A program made the position numbers and the translations under genes. Under the pieces are notes generated by a model. It was not told the origin of the DNA. It saw only the letters and a list, made by a program, of their open reading frames with translations, and ran no database searches. Shown piece after piece: positions 2,983-31,833 of a stretch of DNA of 47,973 nucleotides. Numbering within the stretch: the stretch's first letter is position 1; every line of letters starts with the position of its first letter. The stretch is taken from contig RECK01000036.1 in NCBI GenBank assembly GCA_007694055.1, positions 1-47,973 of the forward strand, written 5' to 3'. Source of the DNA: Wenzhouxiangella sp. (GTDB taxonomy: Bacteria; Pseudomonadota; Gammaproteobacteria; Xanthomonadales; Wenzhouxiangellaceae).

Positions 2983-3041
2983 TCCGGTATGACTCCCGTT
3001 TGAATTGGTCTTGTTCTCGATGTCAAGCCGCTTCGGGCCGA

Positions 3042-4037
3042 TTAGTACCCGGCCAGAAGCTGTCGTTCCAGGCAATCCACCAGATTTTTCCGCGCTTCCA
3101 GCGCGGCAAGCTCCAGGGCCCGGGCGAATCCACGGCTGCAAGTGCCGCCGTGGCTCTTGATAACCGTTCCCCGCACGCCCAGCATTGGCGCCCCATTATG
3201 CCGCGCCGGATCAAGGCTGTCATGCAGTCGCTTAAGACGCCTGCGGGCCAGCAGGCCACAGAAGCTGCCGCGAAACTCGGCCTGCAGCGAGGCGAACAGC
3301 AGCTTGATCGAACCTTCGGCGCTCTTGAGCAACACGTTGCCGGCAAAACCATCACAGACCACGAGGTCGACGGTGCCGCTGAAGACCTGATCGGCCTCGA
3401 TAAAGCCGGCGTAATCCAGAGCGCTGTCCTCATCGATCAGTCGGGCGGCCTCGCGAATCACGTCTGGCCCCTTGCCGGGCTCCGTGCCGACATTGAGCAG
3501 ACCGATCGTGGGCGCCTTGCCTTCAAGCACCTGGCAGGTGACATGACCAAGCTGGGCGAATTCCAGCAGGCGGCGGGCGTCAACGTGAATGTTGGCGCCA
3601 AGATCAAGCATCCATACCGGATGTGTCAGGGTCGGAATGGCTGCCATCAGCGCTGGACGTTCGACGCCAGGCAAAGTGCCAAGCAGATGGCGGGACAAGG
3701 CCATCAGGGCGCCCGTGCTGCCACCGCTGACCACCGCATCTGCCTGGCCCTCCCGGACCAGTTCCAGTGCCTGCCACATGGTGCTGCCCTGGCCACGACG
3801 AATGGCGCCGGCGGCGTTCATGTCTGCCGGCAGCGCGTGTTCACAGACCCGGACTTCCACCCGCTCACTGGCCAGTCGAGAGGACAGGCCAGCGGCCTGA
3901 TCCGGATCGGCCAGCAACACGAAACCAAGATCCGCATGACCGGCCAGAACCTGTTCTACGGCATCGGATATCACTGCCGCACCGCCATCGGTGCCCGCGG
4001 CATCGACGGCAATTCGAACCCGAGTGGCCTCGGTCAT
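3042..4037 (-). CDS. plsX: Phosphate acyltransferase PlsX, with divergent glycine motifs
   Basis: A 331-residue homologue of PlsX, which makes acyl-phosphate from acyl-ACP and phosphate for PlsY in phospholipid synthesis. It has ERPAL, LDLGAN, VCDGF(A/T)GNVLLK and GTVIKSHG in order, and sits between rpmF and fabH, the standard place. Two usually conserved stretches are altered. The N-terminal DxMGGD reads DAAGTDGG, and SAGNTGALM reads SGGSTGALM. Family and position are secure; full catalytic competence is only inferred. The ATG at 4037 is 13 bases after the rpmF stop. Confidence 0.93.
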
Positions 4038-4050
4038 GGATCAGGACAGG

Positions 4051-4260
4051 TCAGCCCTGGACTTCGTCTTCTTCTTCTTCGATTTCCGGCGCCACCTCGA
4101 TGACCTGACGGCCCCGGTAGAAGCCTTCCGGCGAAACGTGATGACGGCGATGGGTTTCGCCGGTTGCCGCCTCTTCCGACAGGGTCGGCGCAGACAAGCT
4201 GTCGTGCGAGCGGCGCATGCCGCGCTTCGACGGGGTTTTTCGGTTCTTTTGAACAGCCAT
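4051..4260 (-). CDS. rpmF: 50S ribosomal protein L32 with acidic C-terminal tail
   Basis: A 69-residue L32 starting [20 protein letters not shown], followed by RRHH and GFYRGRQV, the family hallmarks. It lacks the zinc-binding cysteines found in some L32 forms. The usual protein has about 57 residues; this one continues into an acidic tail ([14 protein letters not shown]) encoded by an in-frame run of GAA codons. The track ORF starts two codons early; the ATG at 4260 is the conserved start. It sits 23 bases after yceD and 13 before plsX, the standard yceD-rpmF-plsX arrangement, probably one transcript. Confidence 0.96.
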
Positions 4261-4283
4261 GATCAATACTCCAGGACAATCGA

Positions 4284-4790
4284 CTAAGTTTCGCGTTTCT
4301 TTCTCAATTCGGCCAGGCCTTCGAACGGCCGATGGGTATCTTCTTCCACCGCTGCGGCCTGGCCGACCGGGCTTGATGCCGGATCAACCGGAACCAGGGG
4401 CAGGCTCAGCAACACCTCTTCCTCGACCAGTGAAGCCAGCTCCAGGCGCTGGTCCGGACACAGCACCGGCTCGTAGTCATCCGGCAGCCCGGCCACGTCA
4501 TCTTCGCTGGCAACCACACCGATCACGGATCGGCTCTCAAGCGGCTGCTCGAAGGTGCCAAGTGTTCTCTGGCAGCGCATCGGAACACTGCCCTTGATCT
4601 CCACATCCACCCTGACCTGGCCCTGCTCATTGAGGGAAAAGGCCAGAACGAATTGAATCTCGTTCGTGCCGCCCGTCTCGACCAGATCCTCGACACGTGG
4701 CATTCTTGCCAGCGGCATGGTTCCGGCAAACTCGCGGCGGGCCGAGGCGGCTCGTTCCGGATTCACCCAATCGGGAAAGTCTCGCGACAT
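4284..4790 (-). CDS. yceD: YceD/DUF177 family protein (23S rRNA accumulation protein)
   Basis: A 168-residue DUF177 protein. The family is needed for normal 23S rRNA levels in E. coli and is nearly always next to rpmF. Visible features are the N-terminal [11 protein letters not shown], the central [16 protein letters not shown], the acidic [10 protein letters not shown] and the [15 protein letters not shown] stretch that matches E. coli YceD (VEDEIILALPVVPV). Only one of the paired central cysteines is present. It is the first gene of the lipid cluster, and a near-consensus -10 lies about 10 bases before the ATG, so the mRNA may have almost no leader. Confidence 0.9.
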
Positions 4791-22963: not shown

Positions 22964-23212
22964 AATAATTGAAAAATAAACAATATCGGTGCTCTTGAAC
23001 AGATCGGTCACCGGTATGTCAGAGGAATTTGCCTGGACGAATGACCTGGGCGCAATCAAAACTCTCCCATTGTAGCTGGAAAAACGCATTTGGGTCAGAC
23101 CTATCACCGGCAGCGCCGGCAGTCCAGCCTGTACATGATGCCGATGCATGGTCGGATCAGGCCAGCGATATACTCTGACCCTCTAGCCAACCTGTCGTGG
23201 AAAATTCACCGT

Positions 23213-25444
23213 ATGCGCTCTGTTCAATCCATCTTCGCTCTGTTTGCCCTTTTATCCCTGGCCTGGCTGACCACGCCAGTGTCTGCTGCGCCCTCGGTGG
23301 ACCGACTGGTGTCCCTGCCAAAGCTGGACGGCACAGCACCGGTCAGGCCAACCTGGGCGCCGGACAGCACCCAGGTTGCCTTCCTCTGGAATGACCACGG
23401 CATGCCTTTCTACGACGTATGGCTGACAGGGATCGACGATGACGCGCCGCAGCGCCTGACCCACCTGGCTCCGCCGCCTGAAGATTTGCTCGGCACCGGT
23501 GATGATCTCAGCCTGGACGCCCTGCGCGAGCGCGCGGCACGGCTGCAGCACCGCGGCATTTCGGACCTGGTCTGGCATCCGAATGGCAGGGCGCTGTTCT
23601 ACGTTCTCGAGGGCCAACTGCACCAGCTCGAGCTGGCCAGCGGCGAGAGCGAGGCGGTCGGGCCCGGGGGACACGCCCTGAGCGTTTCGCCGGACGGGCG
23701 CTGGCTGAGCTTTCTGCGCCAGGGGGATCTCTGGGCCATGGATCTTGAGCATGGCGAAAGCCGACAAATGACCCGGCTGGGTGCGCCTGGCATCGCAACG
23801 GTGCCCATCGGCGCCTTCGTTCGCCCTGATGCCTACATCGGTCGCTACAGGTGGTCGCCGGACAGCCGCCGCATCGCGTTCGAATTCATCGATCAGCGTG
23901 AGGTCCGGCGCGTGCCCTTCCCCAGCTACCTGCACGACGAGCCGCTGTTGAGTGAAGTGCGGCGACCCTACCCGGGTGACACGGATCTTGTCCGCCGCAT
24001 GGGCATCATCGACCTGGCCCAGGAGATGTCGGGTTGGCTTGATCTCGAAGCCCCGAATCGACGCCTGACCATCGATTTCGACTGGTCACCGGACAGCCAG
24101 CAATTGCTGGTGATGCAGGGTGCCGATGTGGCCGAAGATCGCTGGATTTTCCTGGTAGAAGCGGTCAGCGGCGAGATTCGGCAGCTCTGGCACGATCATC
24201 GCCCGAAGCGGATCTACCCGATCTTCCGGGCCTTTTTCAGCCACGATGGCGCCGAGGTCATTTTTCTCGGTGACCATGAGGATTACTATCGCCTCTACAG
24301 CCTGCCAGTCGCCGGCGGCGAGCCGCGCCGGCTGACCGGCGATTTCGATGTTGCGGGTGACCGTTCGGCAGCCTGGACTGCAGTGCACCCAGACAATGGT
24401 GATCTGCTTTTCGTCGCTGCCGAGCACAGTCCCTACGAGCGCCACGTCTACCGTTTGGCCCAGGCTGACGGCACCCTGCAGCGCTTGACCCGAATGCCCG
24501 GCATTCACCAGCCGATACTGTCACCGGATGGCAGTCAGCTGGCCCTGATCAGCTCCAGCGACACCCGGCCCGCCGAGCTCTATCTGCTGACGCTTGATGA
24601 AAATGCAGAGGAACGGCGAGTCACCCATTCGCCGCTGCCGGAATTCCATGATCACGACTGGCTCACCCCGCGCTATGTCAGTTTCCCCAGCCGGATCGAC
24701 GATTTCACCATCCACGCCAGGATCATCGAGCCGCCGGAGCTCGAGCCGGGCAAGCGCTACCCCGTGGTTTTCGGCAGCATCTATTCCAACACCGTGCTCA
24801 ACCAGTGGAATCCCGATCGCCCGACATCCTTCCTGCAGCAACAGATGGCGATGACGGGCGACTACATCACCGTACTGGTCGACGTCCGTGGCAGCGTCGG
24901 CTACGGCGTGGACTTCCGGGAAGCCTTCCAGGGCGACTGGGGGCGGGACGATCTCGACGACCTGCACAGCGCGGTCGACTACCTGATCACCCTGCCCCAC
25001 GTGGACCCTGAGCGGATTGCCATCTGGGGCAACAGTTACGGCGGACTGCTGGTACTTACAGCGCTTTTCCGCAAGCCCGGGCTGTTTGCCGCCGGGGTTG
25101 CCGGCGCGCCCGCCATCGACATCTACCATTTCACCGGTTACGACCAGCACCTGACTCGTCACCCGGATACCCATCCGGAAATATTCGAGCATGGCAGCCT
25201 GCTGGATCTTGGCGAGAACCTGGCCGATCCCCTGCTCATCATTCACGGTCTGCACGATGACATCGTGCCCCTGAAAACAACCTTGATGATGGCCGAGAAA
25301 CTCAAGCTGCTGGGCAAGCGCTTCGAACTGGATATCGTGCACGACTCTGGCCACTGGTGGGCGGCCAGCGACCACTACGCGCGCTACACTTTTGGCCGTC
25401 TGGATGATTTCATTCGCCGGCACGTGCCACCAGGTCCACGCTGA
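23213..25444 (+). CDS. Exported S9 family (prolyl oligopeptidase-like) peptidase
   Basis: A 743-residue serine peptidase with a signal peptide (MRSVQSIFALFALLSLAWLTTPVSAA). The N-terminal two thirds is a beta-propeller with repeated SPDG/SPDS blade motifs. The C-terminal third is an alpha/beta hydrolase with the triad Ser608 (WGNSYGG), an aspartate near 682 (HGLHDDIVPL) and His714 (HDSGHWWA). These enzymes, like dipeptidyl peptidase IV, cut short peptides, often after proline or alanine, here probably in the periplasm. The track ORF adds 41 upstream codons with no membrane or signal character; the ATG at 23213 is preferred. The specificity is not predictable. Confidence 0.9.
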   Translation: MRSVQSIFALFALLSLAWLTTPVSAAPSVDRLVSLPKLDGTAPVRPTWAPDSTQVAFLWNDHGMPFYDVWLTGIDDDAPQRLTHLAPPPEDLLGTGDDLSLDALRERAARLQHRGISDLVWHPNGRALFYVLEGQLHQLELASGESEAVGPGGHALSVSPDGRWLSFLRQGDLWAMDLEHGESRQMTRLGAPGIATVPIGAFVRPDAYIGRYRWSPDSRRIAFEFIDQREVRRVPFPSYLHDEPLLSEVRRPYPGDTDLVRRMGIIDLAQEMSGWLDLEAPNRRLTIDFDWSPDSQQLLVMQGADVAEDRWIFLVEAVSGEIRQLWHDHRPKRIYPIFRAFFSHDGAEVIFLGDHEDYYRLYSLPVAGGEPRRLTGDFDVAGDRSAAWTAVHPDNGDLLFVAAEHSPYERHVYRLAQADGTLQRLTRMPGIHQPILSPDGSQLALISSSDTRPAELYLLTLDENAEERRVTHSPLPEFHDHDWLTPRYVSFPSRIDDFTIHARIIEPPELEPGKRYPVVFGSIYSNTVLNQWNPDRPTSFLQQQMAMTGDYITVLVDVRGSVGYGVDFREAFQGDWGRDDLDDLHSAVDYLITLPHVDPERIAIWGNSYGGLLVLTALFRKPGLFAAGVAGAPAIDIYHFTGYDQHLTRHPDTHPEIFEHGSLLDLGENLADPLLIIHGLHDDIVPLKTTLMMAEKLKLLGKRFELDIVHDSGHWWAASDHYARYTFGRLDDFIRRHVPPGPR

Positions 25445-25465
25445 ATCATTCGACCAAGGTCTTAC

Positions 25466-25494
25466 TTGAATACATCAGGGCAGGCTAATATGAT
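25466..25494 (+). promoter_or_regulatory. Sigma-70-type promoter of the sulfide:quinone oxidoreductase-like unit
   Basis: TTGAAT (25466-25471) and TATGAT (25489-25494) are spaced by exactly 17 bases. Initiation near 25501 gives a leader of about 22 bases with GGAG at 25511 and an ATG at 25523. This also decides the start codon, because the upstream TTG and ATG starts in the track lie inside the promoter. Confidence 0.65.
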
Positions 25495-25522
25495 GGGGAG
25501 ACAATTGCATGGAGATCTTTCG

Positions 25523-26893
25523 ATGTTGCTAAAGCCATTTTCCGGAGTTCTGAATTCTCAGGCTCGCGCGGCCGGGAACGTCGATGATCAACGGCGGCGC
25601 CTGCTCAAGGCGGCCGGACTGGGCGGTGCCCTGGCGGCGGTCGGCGGCGGCACTTTGCTGAGCAGCCCGGCCAGTGCCATGCGAACCAGTGCCCGCATCG
25701 TGATTGTTGGCGCCGGTGCAGCAGGCATCGCGGCCGCCAACCGCCTCGACCAAAGCCTTGACGGTGCGGAGATTACCGTCATCGACCGCCGCCAGCGTCA
25801 CCTCTACCAGCCTGGTCTGACCATGGTCGCTACCGGGATCTGGAAGACCGGGAAGGTCGTCGATCGCAACGACCGCTACATGCCCCGGGCAGTCAACTGG
25901 ATCCAGGATCACGTCGCTGAATTCGACCCTGATGCCAACCGTGTCGTGACCACGGGCGGTCAGGTCGTACCCTACGATTACCTCATCGTCACGACCGGCC
26001 TCAAGGTCGACTATGAGGCCATTGAAGGGATGAGCCCGGACTTGATCGGACGCGAGGGCATTGGCTGTGTCTACGACAATCCCGAACATGCAGAGCGCAC
26101 GTGGCGGATGATCGACCACTACACAACCGCTGGCGGAGTCGGCCTGTTCACGCGCGGCCCCGGCGGCATCAAGTGTGCGGGTGCACCGCTCAAGATCGCG
26201 ATGCTGACCGAAGACCTGGCTCGCCGTCGCGGCACCCGCGAGTCCTTGGAGATGATTTACAACTCGCCTGGCGATGGCCTGTTCTCGCAGCCCGATATGG
26301 ACGATTTTCTCAAGCAGGAATTCCCATCGCGCGATATCGCCATCAACTGGCACCACCGGCTCAAGGGTATCGAGCCGGAAGCCCGGCGCGCAACCTTTGC
26401 CACACCCGACGGCGATATTCGGATCGACTACGACTTCATCCATGTCGTCCCGCCGATGCGAGCCCCCGACCCGCTTGGCAACAGCTCGCTGGCCTGGCAG
26501 GACGGGTCGTTTGCCGCGGATGGCAACTGGATGGAGGTCGACCAGTACAGCATGCGCCATCGTCGCTATGGCAATGTCTTCGGTGCCGGAGACTGTGTCG
26601 GCACACCGATCGGCAAGACCGCAGCCAGTGTCAAGGCCCAGGTTCCAGTCGCCGTGGAAAACCTCCTCAGCGTCATTGGCGATCGCGAAACCGTGGCCAG
26701 CTACGACGGCTACACCTCTTGTCCGCTGATCACCGGTCGCGGACGGGGCATCCTGGTCGAGTTCGACTACGCTCTGAACATGATCCCTTCTTTCCCCTTC
26801 ATCAGCCCGTACCGTGAGCACTGGGTGCCCTGGGTGATGAAAGACCGCATGCTGCTCCCGGCCTACAACGCCATGTTGCGTGGACGTATCTGA
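25523..26893 (+). CDS. sqr: Sulfide:quinone oxidoreductase-like flavoprotein with Tat signal
   Basis: A 456-residue FAD-dependent oxidoreductase. A twin-arginine signal (QRRRLLKAAGLGG, about 23-35) ends in a PASA cleavage site near 52, so the enzyme is probably periplasmic. The FAD motif is VIVGAGAAGIAAANRL. Two redox cysteines expected in SQR are present: Cys218 (GIKCAGAPLKI) and Cys400 (YDGYTSCPL). FIHVVPPMRAPD, HRRYGNVFGAGDC and the C-terminal MLRGRI resemble mitochondrial-type SQR (SQOR), which oxidises sulfide and reduces quinone. Flavocytochrome c sulfide dehydrogenase FccB is also Tat-exported, but no cytochrome partner gene lies nearby. Confidence 0.85.
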   Translation: MLLKPFSGVLNSQARAAGNVDDQRRRLLKAAGLGGALAAVGGGTLLSSPASAMRTSARIVIVGAGAAGIAAANRLDQSLDGAEITVIDRRQRHLYQPGLTMVATGIWKTGKVVDRNDRYMPRAVNWIQDHVAEFDPDANRVVTTGGQVVPYDYLIVTTGLKVDYEAIEGMSPDLIGREGIGCVYDNPEHAERTWRMIDHYTTAGGVGLFTRGPGGIKCAGAPLKIAMLTEDLARRRGTRESLEMIYNSPGDGLFSQPDMDDFLKQEFPSRDIAINWHHRLKGIEPEARRATFATPDGDIRIDYDFIHVVPPMRAPDPLGNSSLAWQDGSFAADGNWMEVDQYSMRHRRYGNVFGAGDCVGTPIGKTAASVKAQVPVAVENLLSVIGDRETVASYDGYTSCPLITGRGRGILVEFDYALNMIPSFPFISPYREHWVPWVMKDRMLLPAYNAMLRGRI

Positions 26894-26919
26894 CCGCTGA
26901 TCATCGGAGTTTGATTCCC

Positions 26920-27276
26920 ATGGCTTTCTCATTTTTCGGCATTCTTGCTGTACTCCTGGAAACCATCCGGCCCTGGTTGCCATTGATCATCGCCGTGCTG
27001 GTGATCGATCTGGCCCTGACGGTCTGGCTGTGGGCCAGGGGCGGTCGTTCCTGGTCCAGCGGGCGCCGCCCTGCCCTGTTCGCGGGCGCGGTTATCGGTG
27101 TCGCCGCATTTTTCCTGGCCCCCTGGCTGACCTCAGCGCGTTTTTCCGACTTGAGCGGCTTGCTCGACTGGATGGCAGTCTTCGGTGGCTCGGTGGGTGT
27201 GGCCGTGCTCGCGGCCGTGCTGCTGTGGCCGCTCATGACCATCCTGTTCGGAGCTAATGCGCGGGCAAGAGGATGA
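26920..27276 (+). CDS. Small multi-pass membrane protein next to SQR (possibly DUF5368)
   Basis: A 118-residue hydrophobic protein with three probable membrane helices (LIIAVLVIDLALTVWLW, ALFAGAVIGVAAFFLAPWL, VAVLAAVLLWPLMTILFG). Its pattern recalls the DUF5368 family, but I cannot confirm this. It starts 26 bases after the SQR stop behind a GGAG and overlaps the porin start in an ATGA, so it belongs to the same transcript. It may anchor or serve the exported flavoprotein; this is an inference from position only. Confidence 0.75.
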   Translation: MAFSFFGILAVLLETIRPWLPLIIAVLVIDLALTVWLWARGGRSWSSGRRPALFAGAVIGVAAFFLAPWLTSARFSDLSGLLDWMAVFGGSVGVAVLAAVLLWPLMTILFGANARARG

Positions 27277-28310
27277 GGCTTCGTTTTTTCGCCGTCGTTT
27301 GCGCACTGGCCACTGCCGCGCCGCTGGCCGCAGGAGATGAGAACCATTTCAGCGTGCTGCTGCGCTTGCAGCCGGAACTGGTCCACGTCAGTGGCAGTGC
27401 TGCCGACAGCCGCGATCGCAAGGGCTGGTACCTCACTGATGGCTGGGGAGGCGGCAACAAGAACAGTCACAACTGGGGAGCCTTGTTCATCGACGGCGGC
27501 TTCCGGGTTGGAGAACGGACTCGCGTCATTGGCCGCCTCGGCCTGAACGTGGATATGGAAGGTCTGAAGGACGGCGACGCACGCGAGCGTGAAGTCGAGG
27601 CCGGGCTGGAAGGCCCCTGGGGACGGCTGATGGTCGGGCGCCTGGAAACTCCCTACAAGACGGCCGGACTGGGCTGGGATCCGTTCAATGCCACCTTCAT
27701 GCAGGCCCGTGCCAATCTCGGTCGTTCCGGCGGCGCTTTCGGTCACGGTGGCTACGTGGACAATGCCCTGAGCTACGCTCATCGCATCGGGGATCTGCGT
27801 TTCACCCTGTTCGGCGCAGTTGACGATGTCTCTGACATCGGCTCGGGCGGCACTTCCGGCAACCACGCCTGGGGATTGTCGGTGAATCTGCCACTGGGTC
27901 CGGTTGAACTGATGGCAGCCCATATCGACGCCAGCGAATTCAAGCAGGGTCCAGACAAGCGCACCGGCACCAAGCTCGGCGTGCGCTGGTCGCATGATGC
28001 CTGGACCCTGGCCTCCCACTGGGAGCGGCGCGGCAGCGGGCTGGAAGACGGCGACTTTTTCCATGTCAATGCCAGCTACCGGCTTGATGATGCCTGGCAG
28101 TTCATGGCCGGGGCGAGCCTGTTCAGCGACAGTGCCGACAGCAACGATGGCAACTACGCTGCCCTGGGTGTGCGCTACCACCTCGACCGGCGCTTTTCCT
28201 TCCACGGCGGGCTGCGTCGCAATGACCGCGACGCTGGCGGCAGCGAGACCGTCGCCGGACTTGGCATGCGCGTCATTCTTGCTACCGGAAATTTGCTCGA
28301 AGGGCGCTGA
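27273..28310 (+). CDS. Outer membrane porin-like beta-barrel protein
   Basis: A 345-residue protein with a signal peptide (MRLRFFAVVCALATAAPLAAG) and alternating short beta strands with glycine/aspartate turns across its length. GPWGRLMVGRLETPYK and the loop-rich GLGWDPFNATF resemble the general porin (Porin_4) family. Many strands carry alternating aromatic and hydrophobic residues. The C-terminus (MRVILATGNLLEGR) lacks the terminal aromatic residue usual for BamA substrates. It overlaps the small membrane protein gene by four bases, so it is the third gene of the SQR unit. The solute is unknown. Confidence 0.75.
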   Translation: MRLRFFAVVCALATAAPLAAGDENHFSVLLRLQPELVHVSGSAADSRDRKGWYLTDGWGGGNKNSHNWGALFIDGGFRVGERTRVIGRLGLNVDMEGLKDGDAREREVEAGLEGPWGRLMVGRLETPYKTAGLGWDPFNATFMQARANLGRSGGAFGHGGYVDNALSYAHRIGDLRFTLFGAVDDVSDIGSGGTSGNHAWGLSVNLPLGPVELMAAHIDASEFKQGPDKRTGTKLGVRWSHDAWTLASHWERRGSGLEDGDFFHVNASYRLDDAWQFMAGASLFSDSADSNDGNYAALGVRYHLDRRFSFHGGLRRNDRDAGGSETVAGLGMRVILATGNLLEGR

Positions 28311-28433: not shown

Positions 28434-29723
28434 ATGGGCAAAAATGCATTTGAACGCGCGCTGGCGCGCCTGGACCAGGCGGCCAACCACGTCGAGATCC
28501 CGGCTGAAACCTTCAAGCGGCTGCACTTTCCGAAAGCCATTCTCAGCGTTTCCATCCCCGTGCGTCGGGATGACGGCAGCCTGGAGGTCTACCAGGGCTA
28601 TCGGGTCCAGCACTCGGACCTGCTCGGCCCCTGCAAGGGTGGCTTGCGCTATCACCCCGACGTAGACCTTGATGAGGTCAAGGCGCTGGCGTTCTGGATG
28701 ACCTGCAAGTGCGCCATCATGAACCTGCCCTACGGCGGCGCCAAGGGTGGTGTAGCGGTTGACCCCAAGGATCTGAGCATGCTCGAACTGGAGCGCCTGA
28801 GCCGGGGATTCATTCGCCGCATCGCTGATTTCATCGGCCCGGAAGTAGACATTCCAGCTCCGGACGTCTATACCAACGAGCGCATCATGGGCTGGATGAT
28901 GGACGAATACTCCGATGTTGTTCGGCGGCGCAGCCCCGCTGTCATTACCGGCAAGCCGCTGGCCCTGGGCGGCAGTGCCGGCCGCGCCGGCGCCACCGGC
29001 CGCGGCGGGTATTTCTGCCTGCGCGAGCTGGCTCGTGAACGCGACTGGAAGGCAGAAGATATCCGTATCGCCATTCACGGTTTTGGCAATGCCGGCCAAT
29101 CCATTGCCAGGCTGCTGCACGAGGATGGCTACAAGGTGGTCGCGGTCAGCGATTCCTGCGGCGGCATCATCAACAAGGAAGGGCTTGATATTCCCGAGGT
29201 CATCAAGGGCAAGACCGCCGGTCGCAAGGTCGAACAGGTCTACTGCCAGGACTCGGTTTGCGATCAGGATGGTGTCGACGTCATCTCCAACGAAGAGCTG
29301 CTGACCCTGGATGTCGACGTGCTGATCCCGGCCGCGCTGGATGATGTGATCACCGGGGACAATGCCGGCGACATCCGTGCAGATGTGATCCTGGAGCTGG
29401 CCAACGGGCCGACCACCATGGAAGCTGACCGCGTGCTGGATGAGCGGAATATCACTGTCATCCCCGACATTCTGGCCAACGCCGGCGGAGTTACCGTCAG
29501 CTACTACGAATGGGTGCAGAACCGCACCGGCGATTACTGGAGCGAGGACGAGGTCGACCAGCGCCTGGAAAAGCGCATGCGCGAGCAGTTCGCGGCAGTC
29601 ATGGAACTGGCCGACGATCTGGAACTGTCATTCCGAGAGGCGGCCTACTGCCTGGCCTTGAAGCGCCTGAGTGCGGCCGCCGAGGCCATGGGCACCCAGG
29701 CGCTGTTCAATGGCAAGAACTGA
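28434..29723 (+). CDS. Glu/Leu/Phe/Val dehydrogenase family protein (glutamate dehydrogenase)
   Basis: A 429-residue amino acid dehydrogenase that interconverts glutamate and 2-oxoglutarate plus ammonia. The substrate region shows GPCKGGLRYHPDV, LPYGGAKGGVAVDP (catalytic lysine) and DIPAPDVYTNERIMGWMMDEY. The nucleotide-binding motif is IHGFGNAGQ. The C-terminal ILANAGGVTVSYYEWVQN is typical of the about 420-residue hexameric type, close to GdhA/RocG. The NAD or NADP preference is not clear from the sequence. A 123-base gap separates it from the porin, so it is probably its own unit. It converges with the second S9 peptidase, 4 bases away. Confidence 0.9.
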   Translation: MGKNAFERALARLDQAANHVEIPAETFKRLHFPKAILSVSIPVRRDDGSLEVYQGYRVQHSDLLGPCKGGLRYHPDVDLDEVKALAFWMTCKCAIMNLPYGGAKGGVAVDPKDLSMLELERLSRGFIRRIADFIGPEVDIPAPDVYTNERIMGWMMDEYSDVVRRRSPAVITGKPLALGGSAGRAGATGRGGYFCLRELARERDWKAEDIRIAIHGFGNAGQSIARLLHEDGYKVVAVSDSCGGIINKEGLDIPEVIKGKTAGRKVEQVYCQDSVCDQDGVDVISNEELLTLDVDVLIPAALDDVITGDNAGDIRADVILELANGPTTMEADRVLDERNITVIPDILANAGGVTVSYYEWVQNRTGDYWSEDEVDQRLEKRMREQFAAVMELADDLELSFREAAYCLALKRLSAAAEAMGTQALFNGKN

Positions 29724-29727
29724 ATCT

Positions 29728-31833
29728 TCAATCCTTGAGCCAGCGCGCCAGCCAGTCGGCGATTTCGCCATAAAAGTGGCGGCTGTTATGGCCGGACATG
29801 ATCCAGTGGTCTTCGTCGGGATAGACCAGTAGCCTGCTCTCGACCTGCTGGCGCTGCAGGGCCGTCCAGTACTCCAGTACGTTGGCCAGGGGCACGCGCT
29901 CATCCTTTTTGCCAATGGTGACCAGTACCGGTGTCTGCCAGTTTTCCGCATACATCAGCGGGTTCTGGTCGAGCCAGAGCTGGGGATCTTCCCAGGGCGG
30001 TGCGCCCAGGTTGGCCTCGCGGTGATAGACCGCATCGCTGGTACCCCACTGGGTGATCAGGTTGACCAGGCCGGCATGGCTGATCAGGCAGCGGTAGCGG
30101 TCGGTCGCGCCCTGCATCCAGTTGGCCAGGTGGCCGCCGTAGCTGGCCCCGCCGGCGCATTGACGCTCACCGTTGATGAATCCGAATTGTTCGATGGCGA
30201 CATCGGCAGCCTGGTTGATCTCGATGGCCGGGCCACGCAGTGGATCGCCCTGGATGCGGCGGGCAAATTCCTCGCCGAATCCGGTGGACCCGGAATAGTT
30301 GGTAAGCACCAGCACGTAGTCGGTGCCGGCCAGCAGATGGTAGTTCCAGCGCAGGAAGAAGTAGTCGCGGTACATGATGTGCGGACCACCGTGCATCAGC
30401 ACCAGCAAGGGGTAACTGCGGTTCGGGTCGAATCCGGCAGGTCGTACCAGCATGCTGTGGATGGGGACACCATCGTCGTTGTCGAACCAGAAATGCTCCA
30501 GCTCGGGCAGATCCAGTCCAGCCACGGCTTCGGCGGTGAACTCGGTCAGGCGCGCATGGCCCTGGCCGGGCAGCAGCTGCACGATCTCGGCCGGTTCGCT
30601 GGCCGATTCATAGCGTGCCAGGAGTACCCCGCTGCCTGCATCCCCGCCGCCATCCAGGCCCGTGTAGATGCCGCGCTGCTGGTCGAAATCTGCTGCGGCC
30701 ACGCCACCGCTGGTGCTTGCCCGGTACAGCCGAACCAGGCCGGCGTCCTCGGCCAGGATGAATACCGAGTCGCCATCCGGCGCCAGCGCATACTCGGCCA
30801 CCGCGCGCCGCTCCGGCAGCTCGATGACGGCCTGAACTTCCGCTTGCGGCCAGTTCAGCACGACCAGGTCGGTTGCGTTGTAGACCCATTCGGTGCGCGG
30901 CGTTCGCTGGGCCAGCAACAAGCGACCATCGGCACTGAACCGCGGGTTGCCGTAGTTGTCGCTCCCGGCCGGCTCGCCCGAACCGGTCAGTCGGCGCGGT
31001 TCACCGCCGGTAGCCGCAACCAGCCAAAGATCGGTGTGCGTGCTGTCGAAGGCAAAGCGATCACGGTTGCGGCTGGCCACGAACACCAGGCCCTCGCCGT
31101 CCGGTGTCCAGGTCACGTCCAGTTCGACGCCACCGGCCGTGCGCCGACCGTCGTACCCGGGGCTGGCAACCAGCTCGGTGCCAGCCAGCAGATCCACAGC
31201 CTGTTCCGCGCCGATGGTCTGTACGAACACCCGCGGCTGGAACTCATTCAGCCAGGTATTCCAGTTGCGGATCGGAAACCCGGTATAGGTCAGTACGTTG
31301 TACTTGCGCGCCTCGCGCTCTTCGCTGATGCGCCTGGAGTCCTCGTCACTCTGGCTGTCAGGATGGACGTTGCTGGTAAAGGCTATGCGTTGGCCGTCGG
31401 GTGAGAATCGCGGCTGACGGGCGCCGGTGCTGATGCTGGTGATGCGCCGCGCCTCGCCACCGGCAACCAGATCGAGCAGGTAAACCTGGCTGGCATCATC
31501 ACCATCCCGACGGGCCACGAAAGCGATTCGGCTGCTGTCCGGGGCCCAGGTCACCTGTGATTCGCTGGCATCGCTGAAGGTAAGCTGGCGTGGCGTGGCA
31601 CTGCCGTCAACCTGGACAAGCCACAGGTGACTGGCCTGATCATCGCTGTCATAGGCCGGTCGATTGACCGCGACAACGGCCAGCCGCCCGTCGGGGCTGA
31701 CCACGGGCGTGCCGACCCGGGGCATCAGCCACAGATCTTCGTGGGTGATGGGTCGCGGCGTTTCGGCGCTGGCAATGGATACCAGGAGCAGCAGCAGGGC
31801 CAGCGTATACGATGAAGACAATAGGCGAGTCAT
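29728..31833 (-). CDS. Exported S9 family peptidase (acylaminoacyl/dipeptidyl peptidase-like)
   Basis: A 701-residue serine peptidase with a signal peptide (TLALLLLLVSIASA). The N-terminal half is a WD40/TolB-like propeller with repeats such as VVSPDGRLAVV, WAPDSSRIAFV and FSPDGQRIAFTS. The C-terminal hydrolase domain has GGASYGGHLANW with the nucleophile serine, an aspartate in GKKDERVPL and the histidine in PDEDHWI. It resembles dipeptidyl peptidase 5 or acylaminoacyl peptidase-type enzymes. It is unlike the other S9 peptidase in the window and probably has a different specificity. It is divergent from sohB, with 162 bases between their starts. Confidence 0.9.
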   Translation of the reverse strand: MTRLLSSSYTLALLLLLVSIASAETPRPITHEDLWLMPRVGTPVVSPDGRLAVVAVNRPAYDSDDQASHLWLVQVDGSATPRQLTFSDASESQVTWAPDSSRIAFVARRDGDDASQVYLLDLVAGGEARRITSISTGARQPRFSPDGQRIAFTSNVHPDSQSDEDSRRISEEREARKYNVLTYTGFPIRNWNTWLNEFQPRVFVQTIGAEQAVDLLAGTELVASPGYDGRRTAGGVELDVTWTPDGEGLVFVASRNRDRFAFDSTHTDLWLVAATGGEPRRLTGSGEPAGSDNYGNPRFSADGRLLLAQRTPRTEWVYNATDLVVLNWPQAEVQAVIELPERRAVAEYALAPDGDSVFILAEDAGLVRLYRASTSGGVAAADFDQQRGIYTGLDGGGDAGSGVLLARYESASEPAEIVQLLPGQGHARLTEFTAEAVAGLDLPELEHFWFDNDDGVPIHSMLVRPAGFDPNRSYPLLVLMHGGPHIMYRDYFFLRWNYHLLAGTDYVLVLTNYSGSTGFGEEFARRIQGDPLRGPAIEINQAADVAIEQFGFINGERQCAGGASYGGHLANWMQGATDRYRCLISHAGLVNLITQWGTSDAVYHREANLGAPPWEDPQLWLDQNPLMYAENWQTPVLVTIGKKDERVPLANVLEYWTALQRQQVESRLLVYPDEDHWIMSGHNSRHFYGEIADWLARWLKD

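Follow-up and report, generated by a model that had tools for sequence, protein, structure and literature searches.

The locus raises the question of where a flavoprotein related to mitochondrial sulfide:quinone oxidoreductase (SQR) would act when it carries an export signal, and with which partners. It lies in a window of 47,973 nucleotides, the whole stretch of DNA that was analysed, from a Wenzhouxiangella-type genome (4.15 Mb, 459 contigs, 97% complete) whose closest named relatives are MAGs of Wenzhouxiangella from soda lakes. Three genes encoding a Tat-signal flavoprotein, a three-helix membrane protein and a Porin_4 porin form an operon with a conserved promoter in front (Table 1). The flavoprotein stop at 26893 is followed by a 26-nt gap before the ATG of the membrane-protein gene at 26920, which overlaps the porin gene in an ATGA at 27273-27276, the spacing described in the first-pass annotation. 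The trio is intact in all Wenzhouxiangellaceae copies with enough flanking sequence, which is more than chance would give. S9 prolyl-oligopeptidase-family peptidases are encoded on both sides of the region (23090-25444 and 29728-31833); a gene of the Glu/Leu/Phe/Val dehydrogenase family (28434-29723) separates the porin gene from the second peptidase gene.

Table 1. Features of the exported SQR operon, in window coordinates.
Feature	Position	Strand	Basis
Conserved promoter, -35 ACTTG-A, -10 CTAATANNAT	25464..25494	+	Conservation, genome scan
Ribosome-binding site GGAG, 8 nt before ATG 25523	25511..25514	+	Sequence
Tat-signal type II-like SQR, 456 aa	25523..26893	+	phmmer, tree, AlphaFold/Foldseek
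Predicted Tat signal peptide with RRR (25592-25600) and predicted cleavage after residue 52 (PASA)	25523..25678	+	TIGR01409
Cys218 (Cys229 of P0001), equivalent of human SQOR Cys201	26174..26176	+	43/43 clade, 22/22 type II
Cys400 (Cys411 of P0001), equivalent of human SQOR Cys379	26720..26722	+	42/43 clade, 22/22 type II
Probable DUF5368-family protein of the membrane, 118 aa, with three helices	26920..27276	+	PF17336, profile match, AlphaFold
Near-invariant E14 (26959-26961), T71 (27130-27132) and D83 (27166-27168)	26959..27168	+	Alignment
Porin_4 outer-membrane porin, 345 aa	27273..28310	+	PF13609, E 1e-20

The claim that the operon has its own promoter was borne out by conservation. The motif ACTTGNNTNCATNNGN6CTAATANNAT precedes the SQR gene, slightly varied, in 13 Wenzhouxiangella-lineage copies in which the surrounding sequence has diverged, and judged by this conservation the promoter is real. 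Its spacer is 17 nt, between TTGAAT and TATGAT. A consensus promoter scan found 1 site where 0.7 were expected and alone would not establish a promoter. The motif has one site in this genome when up to two mismatches are allowed; a second site, sought genome-wide at the same tolerance as the mark of a regulon, was not found. The N-terminus of the flavoprotein had been read from a TTG at 25466, which is part of the -35 box, and both this codon and an ATG at 25490 were rejected as starts because they lie inside the promoter. The most likely coding start is the ATG at 25523, since it is preceded by GGAG and the ATGs of four relatives align there.

The flavoprotein is the sole SQR match of this genome. 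In a phmmer search of the PDB the best match to residues 69-465 of the window protein P0001 was human SQOR (E 8e-70), with type I SQR (1e-17) and FccB (6e-12) among the lower matches, and the AlphaFold model (pLDDT 81.5) was likewise matched by Foldseek to human SQOR (E 2e-40, TM 0.81/0.91). A tree of 72 sequences placed the window SQR in a 43-row clade of moderate support (88/91) that is sister to classical type II SQR; the latter, including human SQOR, forms its own clade (98/95) with the exported clade outside, and type I SQR and FccB stand apart. One long branch, probably a type III SQR (L025), had blurred the split in a first tree and was left out of the final one. The equivalent of human Lys207 is present in all 43 clade members and that of Lys418 in 41. 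At the position of a Cys conserved in the aligned FccB rows, all 43 rows have Gln, as in SQOR; we take this position to be that of covalent FAD attachment (Cys42 of A. vinosum). No match to the FCSD C-terminal domain PF09242 was obtained in the window SQR protein or in this genome, and no FccB was found in this genome, although FccB occurs alongside exported SQR in two others. An FccB-like identity is thus ruled out by the tree, Pfam and the FAD-cysteine position, and by its sequence the flavoprotein is a sister branch of type II SQR. The likeness to mitochondrial-type SQR with both redox cysteines, noted in the first-pass annotation, is supported alike by phmmer, tree, fold and the cysteine pair, and the placement in an SQR/FccB tree that had been called for put the protein in no non-sulfide flavoprotein family.

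The extent of the exported clade was determined with two evenly drawn whole-genome samples, at phylum and class level, in both of which bit scores to P0001 split cleanly into the exported clade (>390) and other SQRs (<285). The first set comprised 55 non-redundant clade loci; many clade loci are close relatives, so that counts are not independent events. The window SQR scored 18.1 bits with the Tat signal model TIGR01409 against a cut-off of 16.7. A twin arginine (RR) was found in 61/61 clade loci with an intact N-terminus, namely 54/54 in the first gathered set (51 by pattern, 3 by eye) and 7/7 new members from the second sample, which had not been used for the profile. RR, a hydrophobic stretch and an AxA-like site are present in all intact clade members, the remaining N-terminus being poorly conserved. 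Among 32 other SQR loci the bare RR pattern gave 4 chance matches, and in none of these 4 was there a hydrophobic stretch like that of a signal. In the AlphaFold model the signal peptide is disordered and outside the folded domain. The twin-arginine signal and PASA site proposed earlier therefore stand, and the sequence evidence for Tat export of the clade SQR is strong.

A gene for a small membrane protein lies directly 3' of the SQR gene in 59/60 clade loci with enough flank (53/53 in the first set, where a small hydrophobic protein was recorded, and 6/7 new members in the second sample, not used for the profile), usually at 2-63 nt and in two loci at 100 and 453 nt. The linkage predicted from the window is thus conserved across genomes. 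The exception is locus L140 (genome G591), in which DUF5368 is missing and a type I SQR gene (about 3010-4311) comes after the exported SQR (1417-2820), both in one orientation. The partner profile gave no match in the 1.5 kb that follow each of 32 other SQR loci, nor was the partner found beside any of 19 others in the second sample that had 400 nt or more of flanking sequence, making 0/51 ordinary SQR loci overall.

The window membrane protein, P0002, scored 23.1 bits with PF17336 against a gathering score of 25 (E 1e-4), 21 of the 25 members of its family alignment match PF17336 at E below 0.01, and the family profile matches the DUF5368 protein of Paracoccus denitrificans at 93.8% probability. 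By these sequence matches it is probably a DUF5368 protein. The full-length DUF5368 proteins sampled, that of P. denitrificans PD1222 among them, adjoin clade SQR in 28 of 28 cases: all 8 above-cut-off PF17336 matches in 399 genomes, and all 20 full-length matches in 72,556 plasmid records (one more match being a fragment). None of full length was found away from it in either collection.

The AlphaFold model of the DUF5368 protein (pLDDT 80) contains helices at 5-39, 49-70 and 81-117. Mean Lys/Arg is 4.1 in loop 1-2 and 0.45 in loop 2-3, and based on this inside-positive charge bias the protein is predicted to be N-out/C-in, with the N-terminus and loop 2-3 in the periplasm. The near-invariant residues E14 (52/53), T71 (50/53) and D83 (53/53) would consequently be on the side where an exported SQR would dock, and contact with the SQR is predicted at loop 2-3 and at the N-terminal end of helix 1. 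A PDB fold search with the model gave no match, a literature search returned no mention of DUF5368, and nothing direct was found on an SQR with a small membrane protein. The best reading of the linkage and predicted topology is that DUF5368 is a membrane subunit of the exported SQR, although it could alternatively be a transporter or assembly factor.

The third gene product scored 75 bits with Porin_4 (PF13609) against a gathering score of 27 and has a signal-like N-terminus. The porin is present in 21/21 Wenzhouxiangella genomes with exported SQR and in one of a sister genus (22/22 Wenzhouxiangellaceae), in one case (G012) on a separate contig, since the one with the SQR breaks off, and in 0/9 Wenzhouxiangella genomes without exported SQR (p 7e-8, ignoring phylogeny). 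It is absent beside the pair in Ectothiorhodospira and Elioraea, and a general role in the unit was rejected on this ground. The porin is a lineage-specific addition restricted to Wenzhouxiangellaceae. The trio proposed as a unit in the first-pass annotation is thereby reduced to a conserved SQR/DUF5368 pair; the operon of Tat-signal SQR, membrane protein and porin, proposed as a periplasmic oxidation unit, is real, but its core is that pair.

The exported clade is spread over Gamma- and Alphaproteobacteria. Carriers with DUF5368 include P. denitrificans PD1222, Cereibacter, Peteryoungia, Nitratireductor, Agrobacterium and Pannonibacter, while in Salinivibrio kushneri and Acinetobacter haemolyticus the clade SQR is found with a divergent small hydrophobic protein. 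In P. denitrificans PD1222 (L098) and Agrobacterium (L104), DUF2892 and an RND efflux pair adjoin the SQR-DUF5368 pair. On A. haemolyticus plasmid p4 (L101, 2389-11064) the SQR pair has a cytochrome bd-type quinol oxidase on one side and a full tatABC set on the other; the plasmid is mobilizable, and the region is a possible portable sulfide-oxidation module. Within 30 Wenzhouxiangella genomes, type I SQR is present in 6 (G003, G010, G011, G017, G024 and G026), where it seems to stand in for the exported SQR and porin, and exported SQR in 21, with an overlap of 0 (p 1.4e-4, ignoring phylogeny and with some genomes incomplete).

Overall, the results suggest, with a probability of roughly 0.6, that the flavoprotein is a periplasmic, membrane-anchored sulfide:quinone oxidoreductase. 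It would fold with FAD in the cytoplasm before Tat export. Its C-terminal membrane-binding segment and DUF5368 would then hold it at the periplasmic surface of the cytoplasmic membrane, where DUF5368 would meet it and may aid access to the quinone pool. The Cys218/Cys400 pair and FAD would oxidise HS- to persulfide or polysulfide, and electrons would pass to ubiquinone with no cytochrome subunit, as expected from the SQR family. In Wenzhouxiangella the co-transcribed porin may pass HS-, and perhaps polysulfide, through the outer membrane, a route that would be of use in alkaline soda lakes, in which nearly all sulfide is in anionic form.

A conventional cytoplasmic type II SQR with an N-terminus that merely resembles a Tat signal is very improbable. 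The signal was predicted from sequence alone, and the score of the window copy is barely above the cut-off; against this, the complete signal is shared by all intact clade members and by no other SQRs, the predicted segment is outside the folded domain in the model, and tatABC lies about 2.5 kb from the SQR pair on the Acinetobacter plasmid. The acceptor could instead be a soluble or membrane cytochrome c, as in a SoxF/FccB-like periplasmic sulfide dehydrogenase, with DUF5368 merely an anchor or chaperone. Among FccB-type enzymes, SoxF and DhsU1 are monomers exported without a cytochrome subunit, DhsU1 with a Tat signal (PMC3504083), and in Pannonibacter a cytochrome-c peroxidase gene is just downstream of the pair. 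The earlier argument that the exported relative FccB works with a cytochrome lacking here thus holds for the absence of FccB from this genome, but export without a cytochrome is not unique. The tree and fold side, however, with quinone-reducing SQOR, FccB is missing here, and in most annotated neighbourhoods the pair has no cytochrome gene as an immediate neighbour, making a cytochrome c acceptor improbable.

Somewhat less improbable, though still unlikely, is that the exported SQR homologue acts on another thiol or persulfide, or serves chiefly in periplasmic detoxification of sulfide or polysulfide and not in energy gain. Occurrence in heterotrophs and on plasmids (Acinetobacter, Agrobacterium, Salinivibrio) would fit such a role, as would the low sulfide affinity stated for characterised bacterial type II SQRs (PMC6382920). 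The active-site cysteines and lysines are nevertheless unchanged, type I SQR adjoins the exported SQR in L140, and the restriction of type I SQR to Wenzhouxiangella without exported SQR indirectly supports a role in sulfide oxidation. SoxB was not found in this genome, and a single persulfide dioxygenase query, run with no positive control, had no match in it.

The preferred reading, a membrane-anchored periplasmic SQR, differs from known systems in several respects. The fold, FAD site, redox cysteines, Lys207/Lys418 equivalents and C-terminal region are common to type II SQR (human SQOR, bacterial SQR), reportedly group C of Sousa 2018. Known type II SQRs are cytoplasmic or mitochondrial, with neither a Tat signal nor DUF5368, whereas the window SQR has both, and the bacterial ones that were looked at adjoin MBL-fold (persulfide dioxygenase-like), sulfurtransferase or ArsR-type genes. 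The FCSD flavoproteins FccB, SoxF and DhsU are likewise Tat-exported sulfide dehydrogenases, but are distant in sequence and use cytochrome c, while the window SQR lacks PF09242 and the covalent-FAD cysteine. Type I SQR (Acidithiobacillus, Rhodobacter) shares the sulfide:quinone activity proposed for the window SQR, to which it is about 25-28% identical, but belongs to a different clade and is mutually exclusive with it in Wenzhouxiangella. The type I enzyme of R. capsulatus acts on the periplasmic side with no cleaved signal.

Thioalkalivibrio ortholog group 1954 comprises FAD oxidoreductases sister to type II SQR, the function of which was left open (Berben 2019, PMC6382920); its published tree position resembles that of the exported clade, and neither signal peptides nor the periplasm turned up when the text of that paper was searched. 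Nothing on Tat and type II SQR was found in the openly readable papers searched. Export of a type II-like SQR branch and its dedicated membrane partner therefore appear to be new. Whether the pair is a new type of SQR, namely a periplasmic, Tat-exported enzyme of two subunits with DUF5368 as indispensable membrane/quinone module, common among Alpha- and Gammaproteobacteria and present in P. denitrificans, is in our estimate evenly balanced. If so, DUF5368 would gain its first function, sulfide oxidation by a branch of mitochondrial-type SQR would be placed in the bacterial periplasm, and the clade sister to type II SQR left without a role in 2019 would have a concrete hypothesis. Sulfide oxidisers such as Wenzhouxiangella may then escape surveys in which type II SQR is set aside as serving detoxification only; one genome survey counts only SQR types I, IV and VI (PMC13384644). 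P. denitrificans PD1222, which has the pair as PDEN_RS23370 and PDEN_RS23375, is genetically tractable. An SQR copy from a MAG labelled Thioalkalivibrio sp. (L039, SKNJ01000029.1) is nested among Wenzhouxiangella in the tree and has a Wenzhouxiangella-type promoter; probably the MAG is mislabelled or the copy was recently transferred.
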